From: an uncultured Clostridia bacterium
GTDB lineage: Bacteria > Bacillota > Clostridia > Christensenellales > UBA1242
Direction: 5' to 3'
Assembly: GCA_944362965.1 (NCBI GenBank)
Contig: CALVTR010000014.1
Location: forward strand, 1-35,952
DNA length: 35,952 nt
Under the pieces are notes generated by a model that saw only the letters and a program-made list of their open reading frames with translations, did no database searches and was not told the origin of the DNA. Shown here piece by piece: positions 24,547 through 35,952 of the stretch. Each line of letters begins with the position of its first letter. Position 1 is the stretch's first letter. Both the position numbers and the translations under genes were made by a program.

Positions 24547-24584
24547 GCACCTATAGTGAAGTGGATATCACAATCGTCTTCGGA
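24547..24584 (+). pseudogene. 5' half of a tRNA-Arg (remnant X), cut at the anticodon loop
   Basis: The 38 bases read as acceptor GCACCTA, TA, D-arm GTGA-AGTGGATA-TCAC, A, anticodon 5' stem ATCGT and loop CTTCGGA (UCG). The sequence that follows does not supply ACGAT or TAGGTGC, so the gene is broken exactly after the loop. Its 3' half is not in this window. It would be expected to the right, at the far end of element A. Confidence 0.75.
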
Positions 24585-24663
24585 TCGCATTTCAAGGGGT
24601 TCGATAATCCCCATAAAAAAATTATCAGTTTTGCTCCCATGGTGAAATGGATATCACAATCGA
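24578..24663 (+). mobile_element. Left end of outer element A (interrupted by element B)
   Basis: From the loop of remnant X to the loop of remnant Y, this stretch matches the layout of the B left end: core CTTCGGA, a short spacer, the 32-base block (24596-24627), TTTT, then a tRNA-Arg gene (Y). Element A continues at 35644 on the other side of B. The assignment is inference from the repeated architecture. Confidence 0.6.
24596..24627 (+). repeat. 32-base left-end block, copy 1
   Basis: Exactly identical to 24682-24713. It looks like a T-arm (GGGG-TTCGATAAT-CCCC) followed by ATAAAAAAATTATCA. GATAAT and ATTATC within it can also pair with each other. It stands just before a tRNA 5' end in both copies, and a TTCGAT-17-TATCAN arrangement could serve as a promoter, although its -10 is only four to five bases from the tRNA. 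Confidence 0.8.
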
Positions 24664-24670
24664 CTTCGGA
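24633..24670 (+). pseudogene. 5' half of tRNA-Arg(UCG) Y, split by element B
   Basis: The 38 bases read as acceptor GCTCCCA, TG, D-arm GTGA-AATGGATA-TCAC, A, stem ATCGA and loop CTTCGGA. The sequence behind it has no partner for the acceptor or anticodon stem. The exact partner, TCGAT and TGGGAGC, lies at 35644-35676. Joining the two halves at CTTCGGA gives a 75-base tRNA with all stems paired. Confidence 0.88.
24664..24670 (+). other. attL core of element B
   Basis: CTTCGGA, the anticodon loop of tRNA-Arg Y, is the only sequence shared by both junctions. Seven bases is a normal overlap length for tyrosine recombinases. In the empty site it is flanked by ATCGA and TCGAT, a perfect inverted repeat formed by the anticodon stem. 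Confidence 0.8.
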
Positions 24671-24681
24671 ACACATATTTT

Positions 24682-24713
24682 GGGGTTCGATAATCCCCAT
24701 AAAAAAATTATCA
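24682..24713 (+). repeat. 32-base left-end block, copy 2
   Basis: Identical over 32 bases to 24596-24627. It stands five bases before the intact tRNA-Arg. Confidence 0.85.
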
Positions 24714-24717
24714 TTTT

Positions 24718-24794
24718 GCTCCACTAGCTCAACTGTATAGAGCATTGGTCTTCGGAACCAAGGGTTGGGGGTTAGAATCCCTCGTGGAGCACCA
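24718..24794 (+). tRNA. tRNA-Arg(UCG) Z, carried by element B
   Basis: A complete 77-base cloverleaf with encoded CCA: GCTCCAC/GTGGAGC, GCTC/GAGC, TTGGT/ACCAA around CTTCGGA (anticodon TCG), variable GGGTT and T-stem GGGGG/CCCTC with one G-T. The Arg determinant A20 is present. The D-loop has GT instead of GG, and the T-loop is TTAGAAT instead of TTCGAAT. The normal G19-C56 tertiary pair is therefore replaced by a possible U19-A56. It presumably substitutes for tRNA Y, which the element breaks. A terminator follows at 24818. Confidence 0.9.
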
Positions 24795-24817
24795 TAAAAC
24801 CCTTTATTTTAGGGATA

Positions 24818-24849
24818 TCTAGCGATTTTAGGTTTCGCTAGATTTTTTT
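24818..24849 (+). terminator. Terminator of tRNA-Arg Z
   Basis: TCTAGCGA (24818-24825) pairs with TCGCTAGA (24835-24842), then seven T. The homologous hairpin after remnant Y at 35703-35734 differs in the stem by compensated changes. Confidence 0.85.
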
Positions 24850-24868
24850 ATTAGAAAACAAAAAATCC

Positions 24869-24905
24869 GAACCCACAAATCAATAAATTATCAACTTATG
24901 GGTTC
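24869..24905 (+). repeat. Inverted repeat in the left arm of element B
   Basis: GAACCCA (24869-24875) pairs with TGGGTTC (24899-24905). The A copy (around 35750-35790) has an even longer AACCCACAA/TTGTGGGTT. Conservation between the elements suggests a role in integration or transcription control. Confidence 0.6.
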
Positions 24906-24959
24906 GATTTCTTAAAAAGAAAATTGTTTAATTTTAGGTTAAAAAATACTTAAAAATGA

Positions 24960-25004
24960 GCAATGTCTACGAATTTGTCACGAATTTGTTCCAAATTTTT
25001 GCAA
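24960..25004 (+). repeat. Conserved left-arm site with tandem ACGAATTTGT (B copy)
   Basis: Forty-five bases match 35844-35888 with two differences. They contain ACGAATTTGT twice with one base between, then CAAATTTTTGCAA. A further GTCACGAATTT stands at the other end of B (35430-35440). This distribution fits arm-type binding sites of the integrase; binding is inferred. Confidence 0.65.
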
Positions 25005-25058
25005 GAATGCTGTAAATATCGTGTAATATCGTATGTTATCATAAAGTGCTTTATACAC

Positions 25059-25089
25059 AAAAAATACCGAGAGAAAAGCTTTTGGTATC
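25059..25089 (-). terminator. Terminator of the ATPase-TOPRIM operon
   Basis: On the minus strand ATACC pairs with GGTAT around an AAAAGCTTTT-containing loop, followed by six T. It begins directly after the stop codon of the RloB-like gene. Confidence 0.7.
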
Positions 25090-25090
25090 T

Positions 25091-25852
25091 TTAATTCTTA
25101 CTTTTCAATATTGTGTCATAAAATTCGGAATACAAAAATGTTGAAGTGTTTAGAACTAGCATTTTTTTCTTTTTCAAAATTAAATCGGCTTGTTTTTTGT
25201 TAATATTGGCAATGTCTATTAAGTCAACATAATTAGTCACATTAGGTTTTTTAAATTGACCATTAACTAATAAATTTGCTTGCATTAGATGTGCTAGTGT
25301 TATCGTGTAAAAGTCTTTTGATGTATATTTGCTTACATTTTTATTAGTGCCTTCTTGTCCGACAAGTTCTTTATATTGAGTTAAAATTTCATTATCAACA
25401 ATTACAGATTTGTTATTTAATGTATCTGGATTTGTTATGTCAAAATGCCTATATGATTCCATCATCGGATAATTTACAAACAATTTACCATATTCAGTTT
25501 CGTTATTAAACAACTTGAGCATTTTAGACACTTGTTCTAACTTTTCTTTTCTTTCATCTTCAGCGCCGTCTTGTAAATCTAAATCGAACACTAAATATGT
25601 ATAAACAAATTTAGTTCCTTTTAGTAAATTTCTAGTTTTATCATCTAAGTCACAATAATTTAAGATGACATCTTTTGTTGTTGTTTCCCCCAATTCTTCA
25701 ATATGTTTATATAATTCATAAATATCATTACAAAAAGGAATGATAGTTATATTCTTATCCGCTTTTATTGTTTTGATAAACTTATCAAAAAACGCTTTCT
25801 CACAACTTTCCCCTTCAATAATCAAAAGGGTATTATATCGTGAATCCGCCAT
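25091..25852 (-). CDS. RloB/AbiLii-like TOPRIM-type protein (putative defence effector)
   Basis: The 253-residue product has the layout of RloB-type proteins: an N-terminal strand with IIEGESCEKAFF (Glu13 and Glu15) and a later LVFDLDLQDG (Asp90 and Asp92). These are the acidic Glu and DxD residues of a TOPRIM-like nuclease fold. It pairs with the ATPase upstream, as in RloAB, AbiL and the PARIS system, where the TOPRIM partner is the toxic nuclease. I chose the ATG at 25852 because AAAGGA lies nine bases upstream; a TTG at 25870 would add six residues. The start overlaps the ATPase end by 20 bases, so the two are coupled. Target and trigger are unknown. Confidence 0.72.
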   Translation of the reverse strand: MADSRYNTLLIIEGESCEKAFFDKFIKTIKADKNITIIPFCNDIYELYKHIEELGETTTKDVILNYCDLDDKTRNLLKGTKFVYTYLVFDLDLQDGAEDERKEKLEQVSKMLKLFNNETEYGKLFVNYPMMESYRHFDITNPDTLNNKSVIVDNEILTQYKELVGQEGTNKNVSKYTSKDFYTITLAHLMQANLLVNGQFKKPNVTNYVDLIDIANINKKQADLILKKKKMLVLNTSTFLYSEFYDTILKSKN

Positions 25853-26948
25853 TCTTATACATCCTTTCAAGGTTATGTGCTTCTCGAATTTCCTTTTCAG
25901 TGCATTCTGGTAAAGAGCGGATATTTTTATTATCAGATATGATAAAGCAACAATCAGGTCTTATTAAATCATTATTCATTAAAGATGTATTGTGAGTAGA
26001 TAAAAATGATTGGAAATTACCTCTTTCATTAATATTATTTAAAATCATTTCAGCTGTCTCGTAATGATAAAAAGCATCAAATTCGTCAATATATAAGAAT
26101 GAAATATTTTCAAATTCTAATGCCCAACAGTAAAATAACCACAAAGAAAGAGTTCCTGTAGAAGCGACATTATTAAAAGGTAATTGAACGCCATTTGGAT
26201 AATTTGCAACCAAAATCTTTTGATTATATATATCTTTTTCAACAGAAAGGTTGAATTCTAATGTTTTATCTATACTTAACAAAAACTTTTCGAAATCCTT
26301 TACTGCATTTTTTGTCTCCAGCATATTTGCTAATTGGTCAGGTTTTTCTTTGTATCCACCAAATTGATTATCTTTGACGCTTCTAAACCACAACATCTTA
26401 TCAACAAAATTCATAAGTTTGCTTAAAGGTGAACTTTCTGGAAGTTTACTATTGTGATAAACAAATCTTATAAAACTTTGTTCTTGTCTTAATGTCATAT
26501 TATTTAATTGAAGTGTTTGAGCTTCTTCTATTAATAATTTTGTGCTGTCTTGGTTTCTAAAATTATAATTAACAACTTCTTTTCCATTAATAATTAATTT
26601 TTCAGACAAGATTGCCAATTGATTTGCTTTCGAATAAGAATACTCTATTTCATCATTGTCAAAAACGAATACATATTTAAAATCTACAGGCTTGCTAATT
26701 GAATATCCATTTTGATAAGATAAATTAAAATCTGGCTTATATTTATCTGTTAAATGATAAACAATATCAAATAGTGCCAATCCAAAGTTTGATTTACCAG
26801 AACCATTCTTACCATAAATAAGACCTTTGTTTACTATGTTGTTTTTAATAAAGTCTTTATGAAATGTATAATCTCTATGATTAGAGAAATCAATAGATAA
26901 ACCCTCTTTAAAGCCTTTATAGTTTTTAACTTCAAAATATTTTAACAT
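25833..26948 (-). CDS. ABC-type AAA ATPase of an RloA/AbiLi/AriA-like defence pair
   Basis: The 371 residues start MLKYFEVKNYKGFKEGLSIDF, the usual beginning of AAA_15/SMC-like ATPases. Walker A is GKNGSGKS (46-53), a signature-like ASTGTLSL lies in the C-terminal half, Walker B is FLYIDEFD and the H-loop is STHNTSLM. Such ATPases sense phage and control a nuclease partner; here the partner is the overlapping RloB-like gene. Two starts are possible: ATG 26981 and ATG 26948, each with its own AGGAG-type site. I prefer the second, which gives the family N-terminus. Two related palindromes upstream (27009-27025, 27083-27099) may be operators. Confidence 0.78.
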   Translation of the reverse strand: MLKYFEVKNYKGFKEGLSIDFSNHRDYTFHKDFIKNNIVNKGLIYGKNGSGKSNFGLALFDIVYHLTDKYKPDFNLSYQNGYSISKPVDFKYVFVFDNDEIEYSYSKANQLAILSEKLIINGKEVVNYNFRNQDSTKLLIEEAQTLQLNNMTLRQEQSFIRFVYHNSKLPESSPLSKLMNFVDKMLWFRSVKDNQFGGYKEKPDQLANMLETKNAVKDFEKFLLSIDKTLEFNLSVEKDIYNQKILVANYPNGVQLPFNNVASTGTLSLWLFYCWALEFENISFLYIDEFDAFYHYETAEMILNNINERGNFQSFLSTHNTSLMNNDLIRPDCCFIISDNKNIRSLPECTEKEIREAHNLERMYKNGGFTI

Positions 26949-27008
26949 ATTTACCTCTCCTAACTGATTATACTTTAACATATTTCTATACTCCTTGTCA
27001 ATAATTTA

Positions 27009-27025
27009 CCGTAAAAATTTTACGG
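27009..27025. promoter_or_regulatory. Putative operator 1 (17-bp palindrome)
   Basis: CCGTAAAA-A-TTTTACGG is a perfect 8+8 inverted repeat about 60 bases upstream of the ATPase start. It shares geometry and sequence with the palindrome at 27083. Confidence 0.6.
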
Positions 27026-27082
27026 ATATAATATAATTTATGATTAATTTTTAGATTTAGTTATTAAAATTGTTGACTATAA

Positions 27083-27099
27083 TCGTAAAAATTATACGA
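27083..27099. promoter_or_regulatory. Putative operator 2, overlapping a minus-strand TATAAT
   Basis: TCGTAAAA-A-TTATACGA pairs in seven of eight positions, and its centre is 74 bases from that of operator 1. On the minus strand it contains TATAAT, a possible -10 for the defence operon, so a bound repressor would block the promoter. Confidence 0.5.
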
Positions 27100-27139
27100 A
27101 AAAGCAAGATTATGCCTAATGCAACAATCTTGCTTTTTC
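27098..27139. terminator. Bidirectional terminator after the integrase gene
   Basis: GAAAAAGCAAGATT (27098-27111) pairs perfectly with AATCTTGCTTTTTC (27126-27139). In minus-strand reading it ends the int transcript and separates it from the defence operon. Confidence 0.85.
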
Positions 27140-27211
27140 AAAAGTTTTTATTTATATAATTTAAGTGTATCATATAATTTTCAAAAGTCAATAGAGAAGT
27201 GACAAGGAATT

Positions 27212-28534
27212 TTACATTTCTGCTTGTTCTCGTTTTTTCTGTTTACACTTTTCTTCTCGTTCTTTTTCTATGCGTTCTTGTTCTTCTTGTTCTTTGATAA
27301 GTTCTTGAAGTCGTGAAATTTCATCTTCTAGTTCTTGTTTTGTTTTTTGTTTATTTTCTTCATCAACTTGTTTTTTCTCTTTGTTTTGTGTAAGTGCTTG
27401 ATTGATAGCATTTGCAGATTCGTATTTAGTTGTATAGTCAAGGTGGGAATAAACATCAGCAGTTGTGCTGAAATTAGAGTGACCTAGCCATTCCTGAATA
27501 TTTTTCATAGGGATTTTACTTGCCACAAGTAAACTAGCACACGAGTGCCTTAAATCGTGAAATCTGATATGTCTTAAATTGTTTTTCTTTAAGATATTGT
27601 TAAATCTATCGCTGACTTGGTCTGGGTTAAACAAATCTCCAATATCGTCAACAAAAACATAATCTTGATATTTGGTATTATAACTACTACCAAAAATAAA
27701 TTTGTTATGTTCTATTTGTGCTTTTCGTTCAAGTAATAATTCTTCAATTTCGGGTAGTAGGGGCAAAGTTCTATGACTTGATGTTGTTTTAAGAGTGTCA
27801 GACAAGTAAAGCACACCTTCAACATTTAAGACCTTATGTTGAATTGTTATCATCTTTTGTTCAAAATCTATTGCTTCCCATTTAAGTCCTATTAGTTCGC
27901 TTCGTCTAAATCCATAATAGGCAGCTACACGAACTATAAGTTTTAGTGGCGAGTTGTCAGTAAACTTAAATAATTCTTCAAGTTCATCTTTATTGTAATA
28001 ACTCATACGAGATTTTTCTCTTTTAATTGGTGGCATAAACTCATAAGGGTTTTTAGCAATCAAGTCATCTCTATATGCTTGTCTTAATGCTGGGGATAAT
28101 ATAACTGCGTGATGTTTGATTGTGACATTTTTATTTCCTCGTTCATTTTTAAGATAATCATAAAAATCAAGCAAGTGATGATAAGTGACATCTTTGAGTT
28201 TTAAGCTATATTTGAAAAACTTTTTCATTATATCAACGCAGCGCATATAACTAACATAAACTGCTGGTGATAATTCTTTTTGTTTATTCTTAACATAATC
28301 TTCAACATAATCCATAAAGATTATATCATTCTTTACTAATGGCTCTGGTTGAGCTTCAAATAAGTCGGGTTGAAAAGTGTTTAACTTCTCATCTAAAATT
28401 CTTTGAGCTTCCTTTTTATTGCCTCTTTCTTTAAGTCCTGTGTTAAACCATTTTTGTTTATATTTGCCATAGTTGTCTTTGTAGTTGATAACTGCATAAT
28501 AATATCCACGTTTAACTTTCAATGCTCCTGTCAT
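27212..28534 (-). CDS. int: Tyrosine recombinase (integrase) of element B
   Basis: The 440-residue enzyme has an arm-binding-like N-terminus (ALKVKRGYYYAVINYKD...KYKQKWFNTG), a core-binding domain (about 70-170) and a complete catalytic domain: Arg210 in GFRRSEL, Lys249 in LKTTSSHR, His326 and Arg329 in HDLRH, His352 in GHS and Tyr362 in VYSHLD. It should integrate and excise element B at the tRNA-Arg anticodon loop. The last 45 residues are a highly charged K/E coiled-coil-like tail that is not part of the usual fold. The ATG overlaps the stop of the HTH gene by four bases (ATGA), making a xis-int operon. Confidence 0.93.
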   Translation of the reverse strand: MTGALKVKRGYYYAVINYKDNYGKYKQKWFNTGLKERGNKKEAQRILDEKLNTFQPDLFEAQPEPLVKNDIIFMDYVEDYVKNKQKELSPAVYVSYMRCVDIMKKFFKYSLKLKDVTYHHLLDFYDYLKNERGNKNVTIKHHAVILSPALRQAYRDDLIAKNPYEFMPPIKREKSRMSYYNKDELEELFKFTDNSPLKLIVRVAAYYGFRRSELIGLKWEAIDFEQKMITIQHKVLNVEGVLYLSDTLKTTSSHRTLPLLPEIEELLLERKAQIEHNKFIFGSSYNTKYQDYVFVDDIGDLFNPDQVSDRFNNILKKNNLRHIRFHDLRHSCASLLVASKIPMKNIQEWLGHSNFSTTADVYSHLDYTTKYESANAINQALTQNKEKKQVDEENKQKTKQELEDEISRLQELIKEQEEQERIEKEREEKCKQKKREQAEM

Positions 28535-28743
28535 ACTTGTTCACCGCCCATAATATAAGCAATAACATTAAACTTTGAAATCTTGTAGTCCTTGCCGATT
28601 TTAATTGATTTGATAATTCCGTTCTTTAAAAGTTCGTATGTTTTAGTTCTTTTGATTCCTAACATTTGTGCAAGTTCTTGAACACCAACGCAATCGGGAT
28701 AGTTAGTAAACATTACTTGTGATAATTCCTTCATGTTGTTCAT
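28531..28743 (-). CDS. Excisionase-like helix-turn-helix protein
   Basis: The 70-residue product has a MerR/Xis-type winged HTH: VGVQELAQMLGIKRTKTYELLKNG, then IKSIKIGKDYKISKFNVIAYI. Small proteins of this kind next to int bend the att DNA and favour excision. Several ATGs are close together (28746, 28743, 28734); GAGGTG best fits 28743. The stop codon overlaps the int start by four bases, so the two are produced together. The upstream gene ends eight bases before it. Confidence 0.82.
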   Translation of the reverse strand: MNNMKELSQVMFTNYPDCVGVQELAQMLGIKRTKTYELLKNGIIKSIKIGKDYKISKFNVIAYIMGGEQV

Positions 28744-28750
28744 CATCACC

Positions 28751-29437
28751 TCACATTTCCATATCCGACTTGCGACTTTGATTTTCGCATTCAAGTAAAT
28801 CGTTCATAGCATTTAGGAATTTTTTATTTTTGTTGAAATTAAAATCAGCATAGTTGTTATTTGATTTTTTATACTTGCAATCAAACCTTGTCCAAGCACG
28901 ATAGTAGTCATAATCTCTTGCCTTTTCACAAATAAAGTTATCAAGGCAAATTGATAATCCTGAAAGCAAAATTTCTGGCAAGTTGTTATCTCGTGCAATA
29001 TATCGTAAATTGCGACTTAAAGTGTTAAAATTAAACCTTGTTCCGTCGTTTTTAACGCAGACATATTTGTTATTTGTGAAGTCATAATCATCATTTGCAA
29101 TTTTGTTTATTTCCTGTTTTTCTTTCACTTCTAAAAGAAGTTTCTTCAGGTTAGTGAGTAGTGGAAAAGTTCTGCCTAAATGTGTTTTCTTTTCCATTTC
29201 CCATTTGTAGTAAATTTGATTTGTTCGCTCTTGTGAAATTGGATAGATTGTGATAGTGTTGTTATCAAAATCAATATCGTCCCATTCCAAGCAAACAAGT
29301 TCAATTCTTGATAATCCATAAGTCATTATCAATTTAAAAAAGCATTCATATTTATTTCCCTTACAGGCTTTCAAGAATGCTTTTGTTTGTTTTAAATTAA
29401 ATGTGTTTTCATTGTTTATTTCATTTAAGTAAATCAT
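28751..29437 (-). CDS. Tyrosine recombinase-like protein lacking catalytic residues
   Basis: The 228 residues align by eye with the catalytic domain of the integrase downstream: LIMTYGLSRIELVCLEWDDIDFDNNTITI corresponds to the VRVAAYYGFRRSELIGLKW region, and KKTHLGRTFPLL to LKTTSSHRTLPLL. The catalytic Arg I is replaced by Ser43. The HxxRH box has become SGLSICLDN (159-167), and no GH or final tyrosine motif is visible. The core-binding domain is missing as well. The frame is intact and has a good AGAGGA site, so it is not simply debris. A DNA-binding or integrase-partner role is plausible. First gene of the operon with the HTH gene and int. Confidence 0.7.
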   Translation of the reverse strand: MIYLNEINNENTFNLKQTKAFLKACKGNKYECFFKLIMTYGLSRIELVCLEWDDIDFDNNTITIYPISQERTNQIYYKWEMEKKTHLGRTFPLLTNLKKLLLEVKEKQEINKIANDDYDFTNNKYVCVKNDGTRFNFNTLSRNLRYIARDNNLPEILLSGLSICLDNFICEKARDYDYYRAWTRFDCKYKKSNNNYADFNFNKNKKFLNAMNDLLECENQSRKSDMEM

Positions 29438-29780
29438 TTTATTCCTCTCATCAATTTAAATTTTTTGGTTCTATTAAGTTGTCATTTTCTATTCTAAATT
29501 TTTGAGAAAGAATGTTCTTCTTTCTGCTTTTCTATTCTCTTAAATCTTCCTATTTGCAAGTATAAGAAGTTGGCAGTTTACTGCCATAAAAAGCGAAAAC
29601 GGGCTTCACGTTTGTCGCAAAAAGGGGCATGATACAAAATGATACGCAAATACTTTAAATTTGCGAAAAGTGAATCAGCAGAAAACCCTTATTTTATAGG
29701 GGTTTTCTAAGCTGAACACTGTCATTTTGAATCCGTGCCTTATCCTGCTCACTAAAATTTTAGGCACTTTCTTATCGATT
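29438..29780. other. Intergenic region with several palindromes upstream of the integrase operon
   Basis: No gene is seen. Hairpins present are TGGCAG-TTTA-CTGCCA (about 29570-29585), CGCAAAT/ATTTGCG (29645-29651/29659-29665), AGAAAACCC/GGGTTTTCT (29680-29688/29700-29708) and GTGCCT/AGGCAC (29735-29740/29762-29767) containing CTAAAATTTTAG. GATAC occurs at 29631 and 29641. The region probably holds the promoter and control sites of the int operon and the end of the upstream transcript. Confidence 0.55.
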
Positions 29781-30254
29781 TTACTCAACTTCGTATAAAT
29801 AATTGGCTCTTAATTGCTTTTTTAATTTTGCCAAACACTCTGGCAAAACTTTAAGATTATCAAGTTCTTTTAAAAACATTTCTCGCTCTGCGTTGCCCAT
29901 TTTTCTAGCCATATGATTTAGTAAAATACAAAGTAGTTGTTGGTTGATTTCACTATCTGCATAAGCTGTTTGTATGAAAGGTTTACTAAACTTAATAAAG
30001 TAGTTCATACGCTTTGTATGGTTGTGCATTGTATCTAAAAGAGTTTGCTTTTCGTTCTTAATTGCCCAATTATCATTCTCTTGTTTTTCAAGCACTTGTA
30101 TGCCTATTCTTATAACATCATTTAAAAAAGCATTTTTAGATAAATACAAATCATCTTTGTATTGGTCATACATTTCATTGAGTTGAGAGAGAACTTTCTC
30201 ATCTTTAATTCTCACCATATTTTCAGTGCCAATTTCATTAACTTTCTTGGTCAT
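29781..30254 (-). CDS. Ribbon-helix-helix-like protein of the element
   Basis: The 157 residues begin with a strand-helix-helix pattern, ENMVRIKDEKVLSQLNEMYDQYK followed by LYLSKNAFLNDVIRIGIQVLEK. This fits ribbon-helix-helix DNA-binding proteins of plasmids and integrative elements. The rest is helical and hydrophilic with no motif I recognise. AAAGGAGGTGA before the ATG is the strongest ribosome binding site in the element. A role in element control or mobilisation is possible, but no relaxase is encoded nearby. Confidence 0.6.
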   Translation of the reverse strand: MTKKVNEIGTENMVRIKDEKVLSQLNEMYDQYKDDLYLSKNAFLNDVIRIGIQVLEKQENDNWAIKNEKQTLLDTMHNHTKRMNYFIKFSKPFIQTAYADSEINQQLLCILLNHMARKMGNAEREMFLKELDNLKVLPECLAKLKKQLRANYLYEVE

Positions 30255-30334
30255 ATTTTCACCTCCTTTTGTTTTAGATTTTTGTTTGTGTATTGTATTT
30301 ATTTACACCTCCTCTTATTTAAAATTCCACAACA

Positions 30335-30365
30335 AAAAAGAAATCTCGGCCGATAGATTTCTTTT
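30335..30365. terminator. Bidirectional terminator
   Basis: AAAAGAAATCT pairs with AGATTTCTTTT around CGGCCGAT. In minus-strand reading it follows directly after the candidate small ORF. Confidence 0.75.
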
Positions 30366-30426
30366 AGTTCTTTCTATATTTAGTTTTGATTAACAAAGAA
30401 AAAATGCCCATCAATAATAAGGGCAA
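30364..30426 (-). CDS. Candidate 20-residue hydrophobic peptide in a compact transcription unit
   Basis: On the minus strand a perfect TATAAT (plus coordinates 30452-30457) is followed by a run of eight G (30439-30446) that could act as Shine-Dalgarno. Twelve bases later a TTG opens a 20-codon frame encoding MPLLLMGIFSLLIKTKYRKN, with the stop at the edge of a terminator. A short hydrophobic stretch plus a basic tail is the layout of many type I toxins and membrane peptides. The start codon is weak, and a GCCC/GGGC hairpin lies in the frame, so a non-coding RNA is equally possible. Confidence 0.3.
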   Translation of the reverse strand: MPLLLMGIFSLLIKTKYRKN

Positions 30427-30526
30427 TTTTATCTTCTTCCCCCCCCTCACTATTATAGGTTTAGTCCAAGTTTTTGCATCGATTTTAAATGTCATTTTTT
30501 ATAATTTCTTGTAAACGAGCATTAAA

Positions 30527-30548
30527 AAAGCCCGTAAATATCGGGCTA
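30527..30548. terminator. Terminator after the winged-helix gene
   Basis: AGCCCG pairs with CGGGCT around TAAATAT, with A/T runs on both sides. In minus-strand reading TTTTTT follows the stem about 60 bases after the stop codon of the gene at 30604. Confidence 0.75.
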
Positions 30549-30603
30549 AAAGTTTTTTAAAAAATTTTTGAAAATTTGTCCACAAAGTAATAATTTAGGC
30601 TAT

Positions 30604-31536
30604 CTATTTCACCCCTAAAATCTCTTTTGTGATATAATGCAAACCTTTATTGATGTCAAAACGTTTAATTCTTCTTGGGGCAACTTTAAGTGTAATCCAT
30701 CTATATCCTTCTCGTGGGGGATATAACTTCTCTAGTTCAATCAATGAAAAATATAATTTGTTTGTCCACCTTTCATAAACTTTCTTTGTGTCTTCATCAA
30801 CATCTTTTCCTTTAACAATATATGAATAAACTTCTCCATAGTATTTTAAACTTATATTATTTCCAAAAACATTATTTGCATAAGTCAATGATATCTTATC
30901 TATGTCAGAAGTCTTTTTGAGTGGGAATTCTGGCAATTCAAAAAAGAACAATTCTATATTTCGATATCCACGAACTACTTTGCTTTCATCATAATCTGAT
31001 TGTGTGATAATGTAGTAATTTTCATTTTGTTTAGCAATTATAATTGGATGAACAAAACAATCATCATCAAAAGGAAAGTCTTTTTCTTTTTCAGGGTGGA
31101 CAATGTAAGAATTTTTAATTTGTCTATTTAAGTGAGTTTTATTTGTTTGTCTTTCAATAAATCCATTATCTATTAAGTATTTTAAATCGCTTTGTATTGT
31201 GCGTTCAGTGACTGCATATTTCCAAGCTAGATTTCTAACTAAAACCTTTTTACCTTTCAAGTATTTAAGATATTTAAACAAACTTTTTCGGCGTTTATCC
31301 CTTGTATAAACACATTTAATTTGCCTTATTTCATTGCCATCTTTATCTTCGTAAACAGGTATGTCATAATCGTAATATCTTCTAACACCACGTTGACCTT
31401 TGAGATATGTTTTGTTGCGTTCTTTTTTCTCTCGTAATCTTTCAGCAAGTTCTTCTCGTCGTTGCTGTAAGATGATTTCTCGTTCGTATGGATCTCTAAA
31501 ATCTAAACCATCTTCGGTTATGTATTTGCTTATCAT
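30604..31536 (-). CDS. Winged-helix DNA-binding protein of the element (regulator or replication protein)
   Basis: The 310-residue basic protein has a charged helical N-terminus (about 15-50). A winged HTH follows at roughly residues 85-135: LFKYLKYLKGKKVLVRNLAWKYAVTERTIQSDLKYLIDNGFIERQ, resembling HTH_11/DeoR-type folds. The C-terminal 170 residues are not recognised. A large protein of this kind in a small element could be the replication initiator or the master regulator; the sequence does not decide. AAAAGGA precedes the ATG, an extended -10 lies at 31555-31560, and a terminator follows at 30527. Confidence 0.6.
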   Translation of the reverse strand: MISKYITEDGLDFRDPYEREIILQQRREELAERLREKKERNKTYLKGQRGVRRYYDYDIPVYEDKDGNEIRQIKCVYTRDKRRKSLFKYLKYLKGKKVLVRNLAWKYAVTERTIQSDLKYLIDNGFIERQTNKTHLNRQIKNSYIVHPEKEKDFPFDDDCFVHPIIIAKQNENYYIITQSDYDESKVVRGYRNIELFFFELPEFPLKKTSDIDKISLTYANNVFGNNISLKYYGEVYSYIVKGKDVDEDTKKVYERWTNKLYFSLIELEKLYPPREGYRWITLKVAPRRIKRFDINKGLHYITKEILGVK

Positions 31537-31554
31537 ATAATATTCCTTTTGACC

Positions 31555-31560
31555 ATTATA
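31555..31560 (-). promoter_or_regulatory. -10 element of the winged-helix gene promoter
   Basis: On the minus strand TGATATAAT (extended -10) stands about 20 bases before the ATG at 31536. No clear -35 is present. Confidence 0.5.
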
Positions 31561-31593
31561 TCACAAAACAAAATCAAAATAATATATTTCTAC

Positions 31594-31625
31594 AAAAAAA
31601 GACACTCAAAATTTTGATGGGTGCC
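31594..31625 (-). terminator. Terminator of the methyltransferase / radical SAM operon
   Basis: Minus strand: GGCAC pairs with GTGTC, enclosing the palindrome TCAAAATTTTGA, followed by seven T. It lies seven bases after the stop codon of the radical SAM-HD gene. Confidence 0.75.
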
Positions 31626-31632
31626 TTTGTCC

Positions 31633-33042
31633 TTATTCATATTTTCCTGTAAATTCTTGGATAAATATATGCATAAAATCTTGCATGAGCTTCGTTTTAG
31701 ACTTTGCTAATTTCTTTGCTGTTTTTGTATTCATGTATTTACCTAATCTTAAAAGTTTATTATTCATATGATGAATGGTTGAAGCGTCTTCTTTACTCTC
31801 ATTATATTCATTTTGATATAATGGAATATTAGGATCAAAATCTATAATATTATGAGCTATACCATATTTAAAATTTCTGATAATGCCAATGGCTCCAATT
31901 GCATCTAAATTATCTGCATCTTGCAATATTAGCGTATTTAAATCATCAACATTGTTTCCATTCCAATTGTATTCTTCATGGTATTCTATGCAATAACATA
32001 TTTTATCTATTTGCGTTTTTGTTAAATCTGTAGTTGATAAAATTTCTTTAATTTTTGTCAAAGAGTCTTTTGGTGCAACAAATCGTCCTAATTGATTTTG
32101 CATTATTCGATGAATATCATGAAGAAAAGCAGAAATTCCAATAACAATTTTATCTCCACCTTCTTTACGTTGAAGATATAAGGCCAAATTTGTTGTTCTT
32201 TCCAAATGACTTATGTCATGCCCACTTTTGTCACTTTGGAACATTTCTTTAATCACAACTTTTAGATTTTTGATATATTGGTACACTTTAAAACTATTTA
32301 CAACTTCTGTACTTCTCCTATATACATTTGATTTCTTGGACAATTCCCTTATTAATATATCTTCGTCATCAACTTTATTGTAAAATAATTCATTTTTATT
32401 AGAGAAGTGCACGGTTTCATTAGATTGTTCATTAGTAAATATGCTTCCTACAACCACATTTCCTATATGATTTTTAACTATATATTCTTTAAATAAATCC
32501 ACATCTTTTACTGTTATGCCTTTTAGTACAGGTTTTATATATAATACTGAAGGAATATTTAGTTTATTTAACAAATTAAAGTTTTCAAATCTTTGCTCAA
32601 TAGGTGTTGTATTTTTTTCTAAAATGTGATGATTTGAAACCGTAGTTGCGCTGATAAATACAATTAGTTGGCCGTAGTATTGTATTAAAGGTAAAATATC
32701 AGAAAGTTCATTTTCTTTTATTTGCTTTTTTGTGGACAACTGAATTTGATTGCCTTTCTTTAAAAAATGCTTAATTAATTTAATTGTTTCATTTACATTA
32801 TGAGAATCCCAACATTCAGAGTAGCAACCGATTGTGATTAATGTTTCTTCATTAATTTTCAAATCACTTTTTTCTATACAATCTATTATCCATTCTGCAG
32901 TTGTTGTATTAAAATTTGTTGAGTTATTGCTATAACCTAATTGTGGCAAATAACAATAAGAACATTTACCAGAGCAACCTAAACTTGTATTAAGAAATAT
33001 TCTTTTGTTATCCTTAGCAAAAATATATCCGTTATCAATCAT
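31633..33042 (-). CDS. Radical SAM - HD phosphohydrolase fusion protein
   Basis: The N-terminal half (1-260) has the radical SAM cluster motif Cys23-x3-Cys27-x2-Cys30 (LGCSGKCSYCYLPQLGY), a style seen in spore photoproduct lyase-like proteins. TIGCYSECWDSHNVNETIKLIKHF and later FISATT and YIKPVLKGIT fit the barrel. The C-terminal half (265-469) is an HD domain of the YedJ/YpgQ type: GHDISHLERT (His275, Asp276, His279), AFLHDIHRI (His308, Asp309) and LQDADNLDAIGAIGI (Asp375). All catalytic residues of both halves are present. The fusion suggests that a radical SAM product or its nucleotide is hydrolysed by the HD part. Substrate unknown. TAGGAG before the ATG overlaps the stop of the methyltransferase gene, with which it forms an operon. 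Confidence 0.85.
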   Translation of the reverse strand: MIDNGYIFAKDNKRIFLNTSLGCSGKCSYCYLPQLGYSNNSTNFNTTTAEWIIDCIEKSDLKINEETLITIGCYSECWDSHNVNETIKLIKHFLKKGNQIQLSTKKQIKENELSDILPLIQYYGQLIVFISATTVSNHHILEKNTTPIEQRFENFNLLNKLNIPSVLYIKPVLKGITVKDVDLFKEYIVKNHIGNVVVGSIFTNEQSNETVHFSNKNELFYNKVDDEDILIRELSKKSNVYRRSTEVVNSFKVYQYIKNLKVVIKEMFQSDKSGHDISHLERTTNLALYLQRKEGGDKIVIGISAFLHDIHRIMQNQLGRFVAPKDSLTKIKEILSTTDLTKTQIDKICYCIEYHEEYNWNGNNVDDLNTLILQDADNLDAIGAIGIIRNFKYGIAHNIIDFDPNIPLYQNEYNESKEDASTIHHMNNKLLRLGKYMNTKTAKKLAKSKTKLMQDFMHIFIQEFTGKYE

Positions 33043-33051
33043 ATCAATCTC

Positions 33052-33822
33052 CTAAACATTGCCTATGTACATTTCTGTATGGAAATCAAAACACACATTG
33101 TTATCCATTTGATATTTGTTAAATATCTCTATTATACCACTCATAAACTCGGTATAAAATGAATCTCCTTCTTTAGGTGCATAGGATAGTGATTTAGTTA
33201 ATCCTATTAACATTTCTAACGTATAATATTTTGAGTGAATAAACGTGTAGGTTTGGTACTCTTTATTCCTAAAAAAGTTTTTGCGGTCGTCTTCATTTTT
33301 ATGTTGATAAGTTTTACCTGTTAATTTTGTATTCCATTTACTAATGTAGTCAAAATATTCAATGCTAAAGTTATTATTTTTATCAACCCAGTCATTCCAT
33401 ACTATTGCAAAAAGACCATCGTCTTTCAAAATTTTAGACACTTCTTCTTTTAACTTTGACTTATCAAACCAATGAAAAGATTGAACAGCGAATACAATGT
33501 CTGCGACATTCTTTGTAAGTGTTGTTTCCTCAGCGCTAGCATTTACAAATGTAATATTGGACTTATCACAACAATATTCTTTGCCTTTTGTTAACATATC
33601 AATATTTGGCTCAACATAATAAAGATGTTCACAATAATCACTAGCTAGTTTGGCAAATTTGCCAGTGCCAGCTCCCAACTCAACAATTGATTTATTTTTC
33701 ATTCCATATTTAGAACTTAAAAATTCAAATAATTCTATTGGATAAGTAGGCCTATATTTAGAATAATCTGCTTGTTTGCCAAAATAAAATTTCTTACTAT
33801 CTTTTTCAACTTTATATCTCAT
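33052..33822 (-). CDS. Class I SAM-dependent methyltransferase
   Basis: The 256-residue protein has motif I VELGAGTGKF (47-56), an acidic end of strand 2 (YVEPNIDML), a motif around NASAEETTL and VADIVFAVQSFHWFDK, typical of the Methyltransf_11 group. The substrate cannot be told. The ATG at 33822 has GGAG six bases upstream. The ATG at 33834 lies only five bases after a TATAAT and is therefore unlikely. Nine bases separate it from the radical SAM-HD gene. It is transcribed divergently from the ApeA-like gene. The two enzymes may act in one pathway, such as RNA, DNA or nucleotide modification. Confidence 0.83.
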   Translation of the reverse strand: MRYKVEKDSKKFYFGKQADYSKYRPTYPIELFEFLSSKYGMKNKSIVELGAGTGKFAKLASDYCEHLYYVEPNIDMLTKGKEYCCDKSNITFVNASAEETTLTKNVADIVFAVQSFHWFDKSKLKEEVSKILKDDGLFAIVWNDWVDKNNNFSIEYFDYISKWNTKLTGKTYQHKNEDDRKNFFRNKEYQTYTFIHSKYYTLEMLIGLTKSLSYAPKEGDSFYTEFMSGIIEIFNKYQMDNNVCFDFHTEMYIGNV

Positions 33823-33896
33823 AATGTACTCCATATCTTATTATAACATATATTTTTATAAAATTATCTATATTTCTACAAATTTAATAATTTTTA

Positions 33897-33905
33897 TGCT
33901 ATAAT
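33897..33905 (+). promoter_or_regulatory. Extended -10 promoter of the ApeA-like gene
   Basis: TGCTATAAT at 33897-33905 (TATAAT 33900-33905) stands 17 bases before the ATG; the -35 is weak. The 88-base gap holds the divergent promoters of this gene and the methyltransferase gene. Confidence 0.6.
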
Positions 33906-33922
33906 TGGAATAAGGAGTATTT

Positions 33923-35326
33923 ATGAATCGAAAACATTATTTGGGTTATATGCAAAATATTGAAAGTTTCACTGCAAGGGGAGAAATTCAAATTAAAAAA
34001 AATAAACTTAGTTATGATATTAAAAACGGTATTGCAAGTTTTAGATTTAAAACTCGTAAAGATATAGATATAAGAATTATAGAATCTATATCTAATAAAT
34101 GGCTGAATTTTACAGAGTATAGAGACAATGAACGGGGTCATCACGATTCTGAATATTCTTTATCTCAAGGGTTTTCTGCTTTATTGTCTTATGTATATCA
34201 TGATAATTATTCTATCTGTTTTAAAGTAAAAAGCATAATAGAAAAACCAATTAAAAAAGCTAAAGTATTTAATTTAGAAATATTCTCAAATTGTTTATTA
34301 AACCATTTTTATAAATTCGATGATTTTGACTATAACACAAATGGATTTATAGAAGATACACCTTGCGCGGCTATAGAAATGAAAAACATAAAATTTAAGG
34401 TATTTAGAACTATTGGAGTGTCACTTGGACGTAGTTTAGAAACCTTGAGAGGTCAATTTCCAAAAGAATTTTGGGGAGGTTTTAGATTTGAATCAAATAG
34501 AGAGTTGAGCAACGAAATTATTTATAAATGTATTAACGCTGTAAACTCATATTGTAATTTTGTTTTAAAAGCATCGGGAAATTACATCAACAATGTTAAT
34601 TTAGAAAATAAAGAAGAAAATCAATCAATCTTTGAGAAAATATGCTTAACAAACAAACCTAACGAAATAATAACGGACACACTATTCTCTTTTGATGATA
34701 TTAAAGATAGATTTCAGTCACTTTTAGAATTGTTTATTATAAAAGAAGTGGATTTTTCACCATTATATTACTCCAATAATAATCAATGTGAAAAAATTGA
34801 TATTTTAAGAATTGCTAGTATGTTCGAAAATCAATATAGGACTTGTGTTGAAGTAGGACTACTTGATTATGTCAAAAAAGAACAAGAATACAAAAATGCG
34901 TATTTAAACTGCATAAAAATATCTAAGCCAACAACAGACTTAGAAAAACAAATTGTGCAGGGTGAAATAGCAAAAAGAGAGAACACTCTAACATCTTCTT
35001 TATCAAATAGACTAAAATTTGTTTTTGATAAACTATTAAATGTTTTAGGAACAAGTCGAAATCAAATAAAAAATGGATTTGGTTATAAATTTTATAAATA
35101 TGATATAACCAAAATTGCAAATAGAATAAAGGATGCAAGAAATGATATTGCCCACTTTCTACAACAAGGTATTGATTATGAGATTGCAATGAAAGATACT
35201 ATTATCCTACAAAGAATAATATATTTTATGATATTTGAGCAAATTGATTTGTGTGCTGATAAAATAAAGCAAATTATTTTAGGCGGGTCTCGATATATTC
35301 AACATCTATTTGGTATTGATAAATAA
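33923..35326 (+). CDS. ApeA-like HEPN-domain protein (putative abortive infection RNase)
   Basis: The 467 residues show an N-terminal half rich in beta strands, with GARGEIQIKKNKL-like text and long polar segments. The C-terminal helical domain holds RIKDARNDIAHF; Arg406-N-D-I-A-His411 is an R-x4-H HEPN ribonuclease motif in the context (ARND.AH) seen in ApeA-like HEPN proteins. ApeA proteins halt phage growth by RNA cleavage. Assignment to ApeA rests on the motif and the two-part layout, not on a search. AAGGAG six bases before the ATG is strong. It is the only clear plus-strand protein gene of element B and stands next to the right end. Confidence 0.68.
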   Translation: MNRKHYLGYMQNIESFTARGEIQIKKNKLSYDIKNGIASFRFKTRKDIDIRIIESISNKWLNFTEYRDNERGHHDSEYSLSQGFSALLSYVYHDNYSICFKVKSIIEKPIKKAKVFNLEIFSNCLLNHFYKFDDFDYNTNGFIEDTPCAAIEMKNIKFKVFRTIGVSLGRSLETLRGQFPKEFWGGFRFESNRELSNEIIYKCINAVNSYCNFVLKASGNYINNVNLENKEENQSIFEKICLTNKPNEIITDTLFSFDDIKDRFQSLLELFIIKEVDFSPLYYSNNNQCEKIDILRIASMFENQYRTCVEVGLLDYVKKEQEYKNAYLNCIKISKPTTDLEKQIVQGEIAKRENTLTSSLSNRLKFVFDKLLNVLGTSRNQIKNGFGYKFYKYDITKIANRIKDARNDIAHFLQQGIDYEIAMKDTIILQRIIYFMIFEQIDLCADKIKQIILGGSRYIQHLFGIDK

Positions 35327-35612
35327 TATAGTATATATTTTTCAGTCAATTTAAGTTTTGTTAACTAACTTATACAATTATAGAGTTTCTTTTAATTTGT
35401 TTGTTGTTAAAATGAAAAACAATCATAGTGTCACGAATTTTTGCAGTAAATTTGCAAGATTTTTGCAAATGGGGTGTTTTGTGTTGTATTTTTTCGTGTT
35501 TGTATTATATAATATTGTTTGATAAGATGAAGTGGCTAAAATGCCGATAAATAAAGGGGTTAAGGGTTTTTTGATACGGTATTTTATGATAAAATATGAT
35601 ACGAAAAGTTGA
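35327..35612. other. Right arm of element B
   Basis: No gene. It holds GTCACGAATTT (35430-35440), the motif TTTGCAAGATTTTTGCAA (35451-35468) resembling the left-arm site, the palindrome ATTTTAT-G-ATAAAAT (35581-35595) and GATACG on both sides of it (35573, 35598). AAAGGGG followed by GATAC resembles the region before the int operon (29620-29646). These are plausible integrase and excisionase binding sites. Confidence 0.55.
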
Positions 35613-35636
35613 ACTCCCAACATTTTCAGGTCGCCC

Positions 35637-35643
35637 CTTCGGA
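35637..35643 (+). other. attR core of element B
   Basis: CTTCGGA, identical to 24664-24670, marks the right junction. Upstream is element DNA with no D-arm or anticodon 5' stem; downstream is the 3' half of tRNA-Arg Y. Confidence 0.8.
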
Positions 35644-35680
35644 TCGATTATCGAGGGTTCGAATCCTTCTGGGAGCACCA
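35637..35680 (+). pseudogene. 3' half of tRNA-Arg(UCG) Y, displaced by element B
   Basis: Loop CTTCGGA, anticodon 3' stem TCGAT, variable TATC, T-arm GAGGG-TTCGAAT-CCTTC, acceptor 3' strand TGGGAGC, then ACCA. These pair base for base with the 5' half at 24633-24670 (GCTCCCA and ATCGA). The 33 bases in front of the T-arm contain no D-arm, so this copy cannot work alone. By chance CTCCCA at 35614-35619 could pair with the acceptor strand. Confidence 0.88.
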
Positions 35681-35702
35681 TAAAACCCTTATAAATAAAG
35701 GG

Positions 35703-35734
35703 ATTCAGCGATTTTAGGCATCGCTGAATTTTTT
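35703..35734 (+). terminator. Terminator formerly behind tRNA-Arg Y
   Basis: ATTCAGCGA (35703-35711) pairs with TCGCTGAAT (35721-35729), followed by T. Homologous to the terminator at 24818-24849. Confidence 0.8.
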
Positions 35735-35843
35735 ATTGTTAGCAAAAAAATAACCCACAAATCAAGACTTAAATCTTAACTTGTGGGTTCGATTTTTATG
35801 AATTAATATTTTTTATTTTTTTATTAAAAACATTAAAAAATTG

Positions 35844-35888
35844 GCAATGCCTACGAATTTGTCACGAATTTGTTGCAAATTTTTGCAA
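35844..35888 (+). repeat. Conserved left-arm site with tandem ACGAATTTGT (A copy)
   Basis: Matches 24960-25004 over 45 bases with two differences, while the sequence on both sides has diverged. This points to selection on the site. Confidence 0.65.
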
Positions 35889-35952
35889 AATGCCGTTTAT
35901 TTTCGTATAATATTATATCTTATTATAAAGTGTTTTTTTGCAAGATTTTTAC

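Follow-up and report, generated by a model that had tools for sequence, protein, structure and literature searches.

Split and intact tRNA-Arg genes in the window

We analysed a 35,952-nucleotide stretch of DNA from an uncultured Clostridia bacterium (GenBank assembly GCA_944362965.1, contig CALVTR010000014.1; hereafter the window), which is the whole of contig C14 of a genome (G000) of 1.37 Mb in 24 contigs, 98% complete. The left part of the window is chromosomal (sampled proteins: ribosomal L3, L4, S3, L24 and S5, adenylate kinase and an M24 peptidase). Further right lie the separated halves of tRNA-Arg(UCG) genes, here called X and Y, an intact tRNA-Arg(UCG), Z, and a tyrosine integrase, P0001, arranged as an inner element nested in an outer one, with left and right attachment sites (attL, attR) as follows:

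24547..24584, + strand: 5' half of tRNA-Arg(UCG) X with the 7-nt anticodon loop CTTCGGA, attL of the outer element; 3' half at G000:C4:114483-114526
24585..24632, + strand: left end of the outer element, a leader with a T-arm-like remnant (GGGGTTCGATAATCCCC); the same left-end unit occurs in relatives
24633..24670, + strand: 5' half of tRNA-Arg(UCG) Y with the loop, attL of the inner element; Y was once the cargo tRNA of the outer element, and an identical intact Y lies in genome G124
24671..24717, + strand: left end of the inner element, a 47-bp leader with a T-arm-like remnant; its promoter-like pair is not significantly above shuffles (p 0.11)
24718..24794, + strand: intact tRNA-Arg(UCG) Z, the putative replacement
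24817..24851, + strand: hairpin and T run, terminator-like, 3' of Z
27212..28534, − strand: tyrosine integrase P0001, 440 aa (Pfam PF00589, 1.1e-28, and PF13102; PHROG phrog_1)
35571..35600, + strand: outward promoter-like pair within the conserved right end, 36 bp from the core (G000, p 0.02 in a 150-bp window)
35601..35636, + strand: conserved right end of the inner element
35637..35680, + strand: loop and 3' half of tRNA-Arg Y, attR of the inner element
35681..35952, + strand: continuation of the outer element, resembling the stretch after Z and presumed to go on, across a gap, on contig C4

Reading from 24547, the 5' half of X, a left end, the 5' half of Y, a second left end and intact Z thus follow one another; the two left units are 86-nt direct repeats with 85% identity, and Z sits 47 bp inside the left end of the inner element, in the same orientation as the destroyed gene. 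The core common to both ends is the 7-bp CTTCGGA, too short for rebuilding a tRNA. Joined X and joined Y each pair at 7/7 acceptor and 5/5 anticodon-stem positions. A first-pass annotation, made from the letters of this DNA alone, had noticed a split tRNA-Arg beside a separate complete tRNA, and our analysis confirms the observation. Its claim that the target gene is destroyed and not restored also holds: ARAGORN called no tRNA at the window junctions or on C4, and no tRNA-Arg(UCG) other than Z was found in this 98%-complete genome. The 3' half of X, which had been expected beyond the window, was found on C4: its pattern has a single match in the genome (a reversed control pattern has 0), and the sequence before it nearly equals the right end of the inner element (...ATTTTCAGGTCGCCC-CTTCGGA). 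The X 3' half thus adjoins a second, related right end, in agreement with the nesting proposed earlier.

The same annotation had proposed a search of related genomes for the empty site with joined Y. In genome G124, joined Y has an identical, intact counterpart, carried at a right-end/CTTCGGA/left-end junction of the form expected for a circular-element attachment site (attP) or a tandem junction. An empty X site with both flanks was not found: the right-flank genes had no match, two left-flank genes match in 5 of the 7 genus loci examined (L221, L222, L223, L224 and L226; not L220 or L225), and another left-flank gene lies on the opposite side of the tRNA in L222, L223 and L226.

The integrase domain matches and the split tRNA-Arg halves fit a tyrosine integrase acting at a tRNA attachment site in the host (attB), a reaction read here from the junctions. 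We propose that the integrase recombines the 7-bp loop CTTCGGA in a tRNA-Arg(UCG) gene with an identical stretch in a circular element; because these 7 bp are too short to rebuild it, the host gene stays divided, with its 5' half at the left end of the element and its 3' half at the right end, as seen in the window. The complete same-anticodon tRNA of the element would replace the destroyed gene. Because its own anticodon loop is intact, this carried tRNA was open to another element of the same family, which landed in it and left the stacked halves X and Y and intact Z. The many related loci described below suggest that a transcript comprising 5' half, leader and tRNA would start at the host promoter, with the tRNA cut out of it; precise excision would restore the previous tRNA, whereas a cell that lost the region imprecisely would have none. 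We therefore read the window as two nested integrative islands of one family, each of which split a tRNA gene and supplied a complete one, and assign this reading a probability of about 0.9.

Matching halves in other genomes

Stem pairing provides a comparison beyond the window. All 12 of 12 stem positions pair in each of 22 assembled attL/attR pairs (five anticodons, selected), whereas mismatched joins with the same loop gave complete stems in 8/142; the pairs were picked from genomes with a second, non-intact 3' half, some after the acceptor stems were seen to fit, so that 22/22 is not an unbiased rate and the mismatched joins serve as its comparison. Eleven Arg pairs come from 10/19 genomes with a split 3' half; Ser-CGA pairs come from 5/21 genomes (14 with a single match, G166 unresolved, and G167 with a second match not taken as tRNA-Ser); and Leu-UAA pairs come from 4/9 genomes (L156 conventional, three single, G171 unresolved), to which L163 and L090 are added. 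Stem pairing was used instead of ARAGORN because the latter also passes cross-joins: 33/334 of these pass, and 33/35 of those using true right ends only, which makes ARAGORN on joined halves non-discriminating. The joined halves of G123 match, without a difference in 81 bases, the region of the intact tRNA in G134, a genome of the same genus (left flank 77% over 339 bp, partly alignable), and the carried tRNA clearly differs in sequence from the split one in L131, L106 and G110.

Distribution of the layout among integrase relatives

P0001 relatives at E<=1e-20 are present in 36/147 family genomes, many of them weak or partial, and a genome collection holds at least 564 confirmed stretches with such relatives, of which the best 80 were kept. 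We examined 107 loci: 80/80 from genome contigs, 8/20 viral loci (one near-copy and 11 weak loci left out), 18/20 family loci (L087 and L089 left out) and the window. Removal of the duplicates L091 and L102 leaves 105; the near-copies L171/L172 and L174/L175, all without the layout, were kept. The layout was called where a complete tRNA stands on the integrase side and has, no more than 450 bp upstream, a 5' half that is at least 75% identical and stops at the same loop. By this definition 54/107 loci have the layout, or 52/105 after duplicate removal, which makes it a general one. Ten anticodons occur among the 52 (Arg-UCG, Lys-CUU, Ser-CGA, Ser-UGA, Leu-UAA, Leu-CAA, Leu-CAG, Gln-CUG, Gln-UUG and Phe-GAA); Leu-AAG (L090) falls under the layout threshold, yet has a matching attR. 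Included are isolates (by title): Lachnoanaerobaculum sp. OBRC5-5, Caproicibacter fermentans, Oscillibacter ruminantium, Marasmitruncus massiliensis and Paenibacillus cellulositrophicus. The viral-contig scan yielded 20 loci with identity of at most 34%, and the matching phage records (53) and plasmid records (18) were all below 60% identity.

At L152 just 25 bp separate the tRNA-Phe 5' half from the complete tRNA-Phe that follows it, less than in the other layout loci. The left end upstream of tRNA-Arg in L220, L221 and L224 is of a distinct, longer type, whose 5' halves hardly differ from the intact tRNA that lies some 170 bp further downstream; this type may belong to another integrase subfamily. 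No P0001 match was found in G131 or G080, and only broken or distant ones in G118.

Stacked tRNA halves

Two to four 5' halves are stacked upstream of the intact tRNA in 11 of the 52 layout loci, and a control scan of 2.5 kb beyond the integrase gene found 0. The longest stack, at L104, has four halves at −725, −543, −351 and −170; the outer half at L106 has one loop mismatch. L131 was rejected as a twelfth stacked locus, as its second match coincides with the intact tRNA-Ser(UGA). That a newly supplied tRNA becomes the next landing site, as the first-pass annotation had suggested, is seen for Y in the window and for Z-type tRNAs in G026 and G027, which are themselves split. If each island lands in the tRNA of the previous one, the outermost half would be the oldest and the stack would give the order of insertions in time.

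At L074:18710-18838 (integrase gene on the minus strand), in G005, a tandem right end/CTTCGGA/left end is followed by a second intact tRNA-Arg(UCG); G005 is one of three census genomes with two intact copies.

Expression of the carried tRNA

We scored 75 bp at 62 loci against mononucleotide shuffles, leaving out L077, L152 and the Lys loci with a leader below 40 bp. The region before the outermost half has a mean z of 1.84, with 45% of the loci at p<=0.05, whereas the leader before the intact tRNA has a mean z of 0.00, with 2% at p<=0.05; the trials are not independent, because the leaders are related. The upstream region outscores the leader in 48/62 loci, and 53 genes without a half gave z 1.25, with 34% at p<=0.05. 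A terminator-like hairpin follows the tRNA in 36/52 loci versus 6.1 expected. Because upstream regions score promoter-like, leaders do not, and terminators follow the tRNA, we infer that expression of the carried tRNA probably depends on the captured promoter of the old host tRNA, although the window itself shows no significant signal.

The leader, or in the circular form the right end, might instead hold a promoter belonging to the tRNA. Many Arg right ends hold a promoter-like pair that points outward and lies 36 bp from the core (p<=0.05 in 7/19 with a 75-bp window and in 5/19 with a 150-bp window), and it could serve the circular form by driving the tRNA there. Once the element is integrated, however, this pair faces the host 3' half and not the tRNA, and the leaders score like shuffles. 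A promoter of the tRNA's own is thus a possible but doubtful account, and promoter capture remains our preferred one; if true, it makes an island hard to lose except by precise excision.

Dependence on the carried tRNA

Z is identical in 14/85 family genomes with a site, and of the 81 family genomes in which an intact copy matches the census pattern, 78 have a single such copy. The tRNA-Arg genes found in the window's genome are ACG, UCU and UCG, and a TadA-type deaminase gene is present; with this set, CGG should presumably be read by Z alone. Dependence of the cell on the island tRNA is therefore plausible. The carried tRNA may instead be pictured as a mere landing site or an extra copy on which the cell does not depend: CGG is rare (3/7840 codons sampled), CGA would be readable by the ACG tRNA with TadA, and some of the targeted tRNAs (Ser-CGA, Leu-CAA and Lys-CUU) are usually redundant. 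We consider this unlikely, given the single intact copy in 78/81 genomes, the full stems of nearly all copies and the retention of Z in G059 though the element body is gone. In that genome, of the same genus and partly syntenic on the left side, a 5' half, a left end and Z occur with no integrase match. It is the best case of what sometimes happens, loss of the element body with the foreign tRNA kept as a resident gene. G112 was rejected as such a post-loss stage, because its split 3' half was found 1 kb downstream.

Alternative explanations and origin

Conventional tRNA islands as a rule restore the gene that they disrupt by a carried fragment (PMC4383910), and the complete tRNA might accordingly consist of a host 5' half and an element 3' half, the other halves being displaced. 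Four integrase relatives (L097, L129, L156 and L157) do fit such rebuilding. In the window, however, a separate 5' half precedes the complete tRNA, which is internal to the element, and it is this separate half, not the intact tRNA, that the displaced 3' half makes whole; with the distinct carried tRNAs of L131, L106 and G110, this makes conventional restoration very improbable. Partial tRNA duplication or misassembly, unrelated to integration, is more improbable still: many of the genomes are metagenome-assembled by title and tRNA fragments are common in prokaryotes (PMC9897764), but the cut falls exactly at the loop, left and right ends are conserved, matching 3' halves lie at a distance, and the assemblies are many, isolates by title included.

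Other observations weigh against nested tRNA-replacing islands, or against their generality. An assembly gap splits the outer element of the window, which had to be put together by inference as C14 and C4 show no overlap. Among the 107 loci, 24 have an integrase-side tRNA but no recognised upstream half, 26 have no plus-strand tRNA in the examined stretch and 3 are too short. No attR remnant was seen in 14/21 tRNA-Ser(CGA) genomes, which have one 3' half by exact pattern; among these 14 is the L104 genome, which shows no 3' half besides the intact tRNA despite the four stacked 5' halves of its locus. Upstream of X in the window there is no promoter-like site above shuffles (p 0.61; p 0.39 in a second test), and the relatedness of the leaders, noted above, limits the promoter comparison. 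Finally, the four relatives that fit rebuilding indicate that the lineage uses both modes.

At 11 nt past the loop, about the place of the T-arm in these tRNAs, the Arg left ends retain a T-arm-like hairpin, as a decayed 3' half should; this suggests descent from 3'-restoring elements. A tree of 96 rows (46 with the layout) shows the layout clustered, with 21 changes versus a shuffled mean of 32.3, and not as one clade; it does not fix the origin or direction of the layout. It is somewhat more probable than not, at a lower level of confidence than the nesting itself, that an integrase lineage widespread in Clostridia spreads by promoter-trapping tRNA replacement, with host tRNAs serially overwritten, a dated ladder of 5' halves left behind and, in some lineages, an essential tRNA that has become permanently island-derived.

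Relation to known elements

The closest known system is the tRNA-dependent lysogeny described by Guerrero-Bustamante and Hatfull (2024, PMC10865867) for actinobacteriophages, which likewise combines a tyrosine integrase, an attB in a tRNA gene, a core too short for restoration and a complete tRNA of the same isotype on the element. In that work related integrases either rebuild or replace the tRNA, and the authors leave its prevalence elsewhere open. The elements there are temperate phages, with tRNA-Lys-TTT, Ile2-CAT and Leu-CAA (their Table 2), whereas ours are apparently non-phage islands of Clostridia and Paenibacillus, with ten to eleven anticodons. The tRNA of phage Fionnbharth has its own strong promoter and overlaps a coding gene (PMC10865867); in contrast, the Clostridia leaders score like shuffles, the tRNA stands beside attL without a detectable promoter, often with a terminator, and serial nesting and permanent takeover are added.

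Islander-type islands share the anticodon-centred crossover by a tyrosine integrase and the displaced fragments at their ends, but restore the disrupted gene by a carried fragment (PMC4383910), which the window island does not. The Lj965 prophage of Lactobacillus johnsonii and Lo5R7ANS-like prophages of Mesorhizobium are reported to carry a cognate tRNA without restoring the disrupted one, or to use that mechanism (PMC10865867, PMC12429752); both are prophages known here by these citing papers, unlike the apparently non-phage island of the window. A disruption element of tRNA-Thr in Caldiarchaeum also has a 5' tRNA fragment, which adjoins an element bearing a recombinase and one more tRNA (PMC3293823); it is archaeal and intron-linked, and the likeness drawn here is one of description. 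Within the accessible text of the open-licence literature searched, we recognised no description of non-phage islands of this kind, nested ladders or promoter capture. The principle is thus already known from phages; what is apparently new is its use by non-phage islands, the serial nesting, the permanent takeover and the promoterless-looking tRNA with a terminator.

Our results extend tRNA replacement beyond actinobacteriophages to one large Clostridia integrase lineage, some of whose islands carry defence genes. The stacked 5' halves offer a readable history of insertion, and the identical Z in 14 genomes points to a route by which mobile DNA takes over tRNA genes across genera. Island finders that seek matching pairs of tRNA and fragment would tend to miss such islands.

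Cargo of the islands

The inner island carries a candidate defence pair (PDC-M12A/B) and, with the integrase, the following genes:

25091..25870, − strand: candidate defence protein, RloB-like / PDC-M12B (Pfam PF13707 below cut-off; PADLOC PDC-M12B 1.3e-43)
25833..26981, − strand: AAA ATPase, candidate defence protein PDC-M12A (Pfam; PADLOC 1.6e-118)
28531..28794, − strand: excisionase-like helix-turn-helix (HTH) protein (TIGR01764 above cut-off; PF12728)
28751..29437, − strand: second integrase-like protein, short and degenerate-looking (PF00589 1.4e-6)
29781..30254, − strand: protein with a weak exonuclease-like match far below cut-off
30604..31536, − strand: protein with weak HTH regulator-like matches far below cut-offs
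31633..33042, − strand: HD-domain protein with a radical SAM-like part (radical SAM just below cut-off)
33052..33834, − strand: methyltransferase
33923..35326, + strand: Apea-like HEPN-domain protein (HEPN_Apea, 1.6e-5, above cut-off)

The part of the outer island on C4 encodes AbiEii with an AbiEi-like neighbour, GmrSD/HNH, GMT-wHTH-like, radical SAM and YpsA-like proteins, the AbiEi, GMT-wHTH and YpsA matches being below cut-offs. Pfam gave no phage structural family in 10 inner-element proteins and 9 proteins of the outer part on C4, part of the outer element possibly being missing; PHROGs were run on the integrase, the excisionase and the integrase-like protein of the element. There were no relaxase or conjugation genes in the inner element or the examined outer part. 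Among relatives, Mob_Pre occurs in L106 and L128, and RepA_N in L128.

A short second integrase-like protein beside the integrase is also found at L163:1344-1904 and L164:7598-8056; the copy in the window lies upstream of the excisionase and integrase genes. In Paenibacillus cellulositrophicus, at the tRNA-Leu(CAG)-replacing locus L127 (4706-8823), a HamA-like protein and a DEAD-box helicase lie next to the integrase gene, a pair that we take to be a Hachiman-type defence system.

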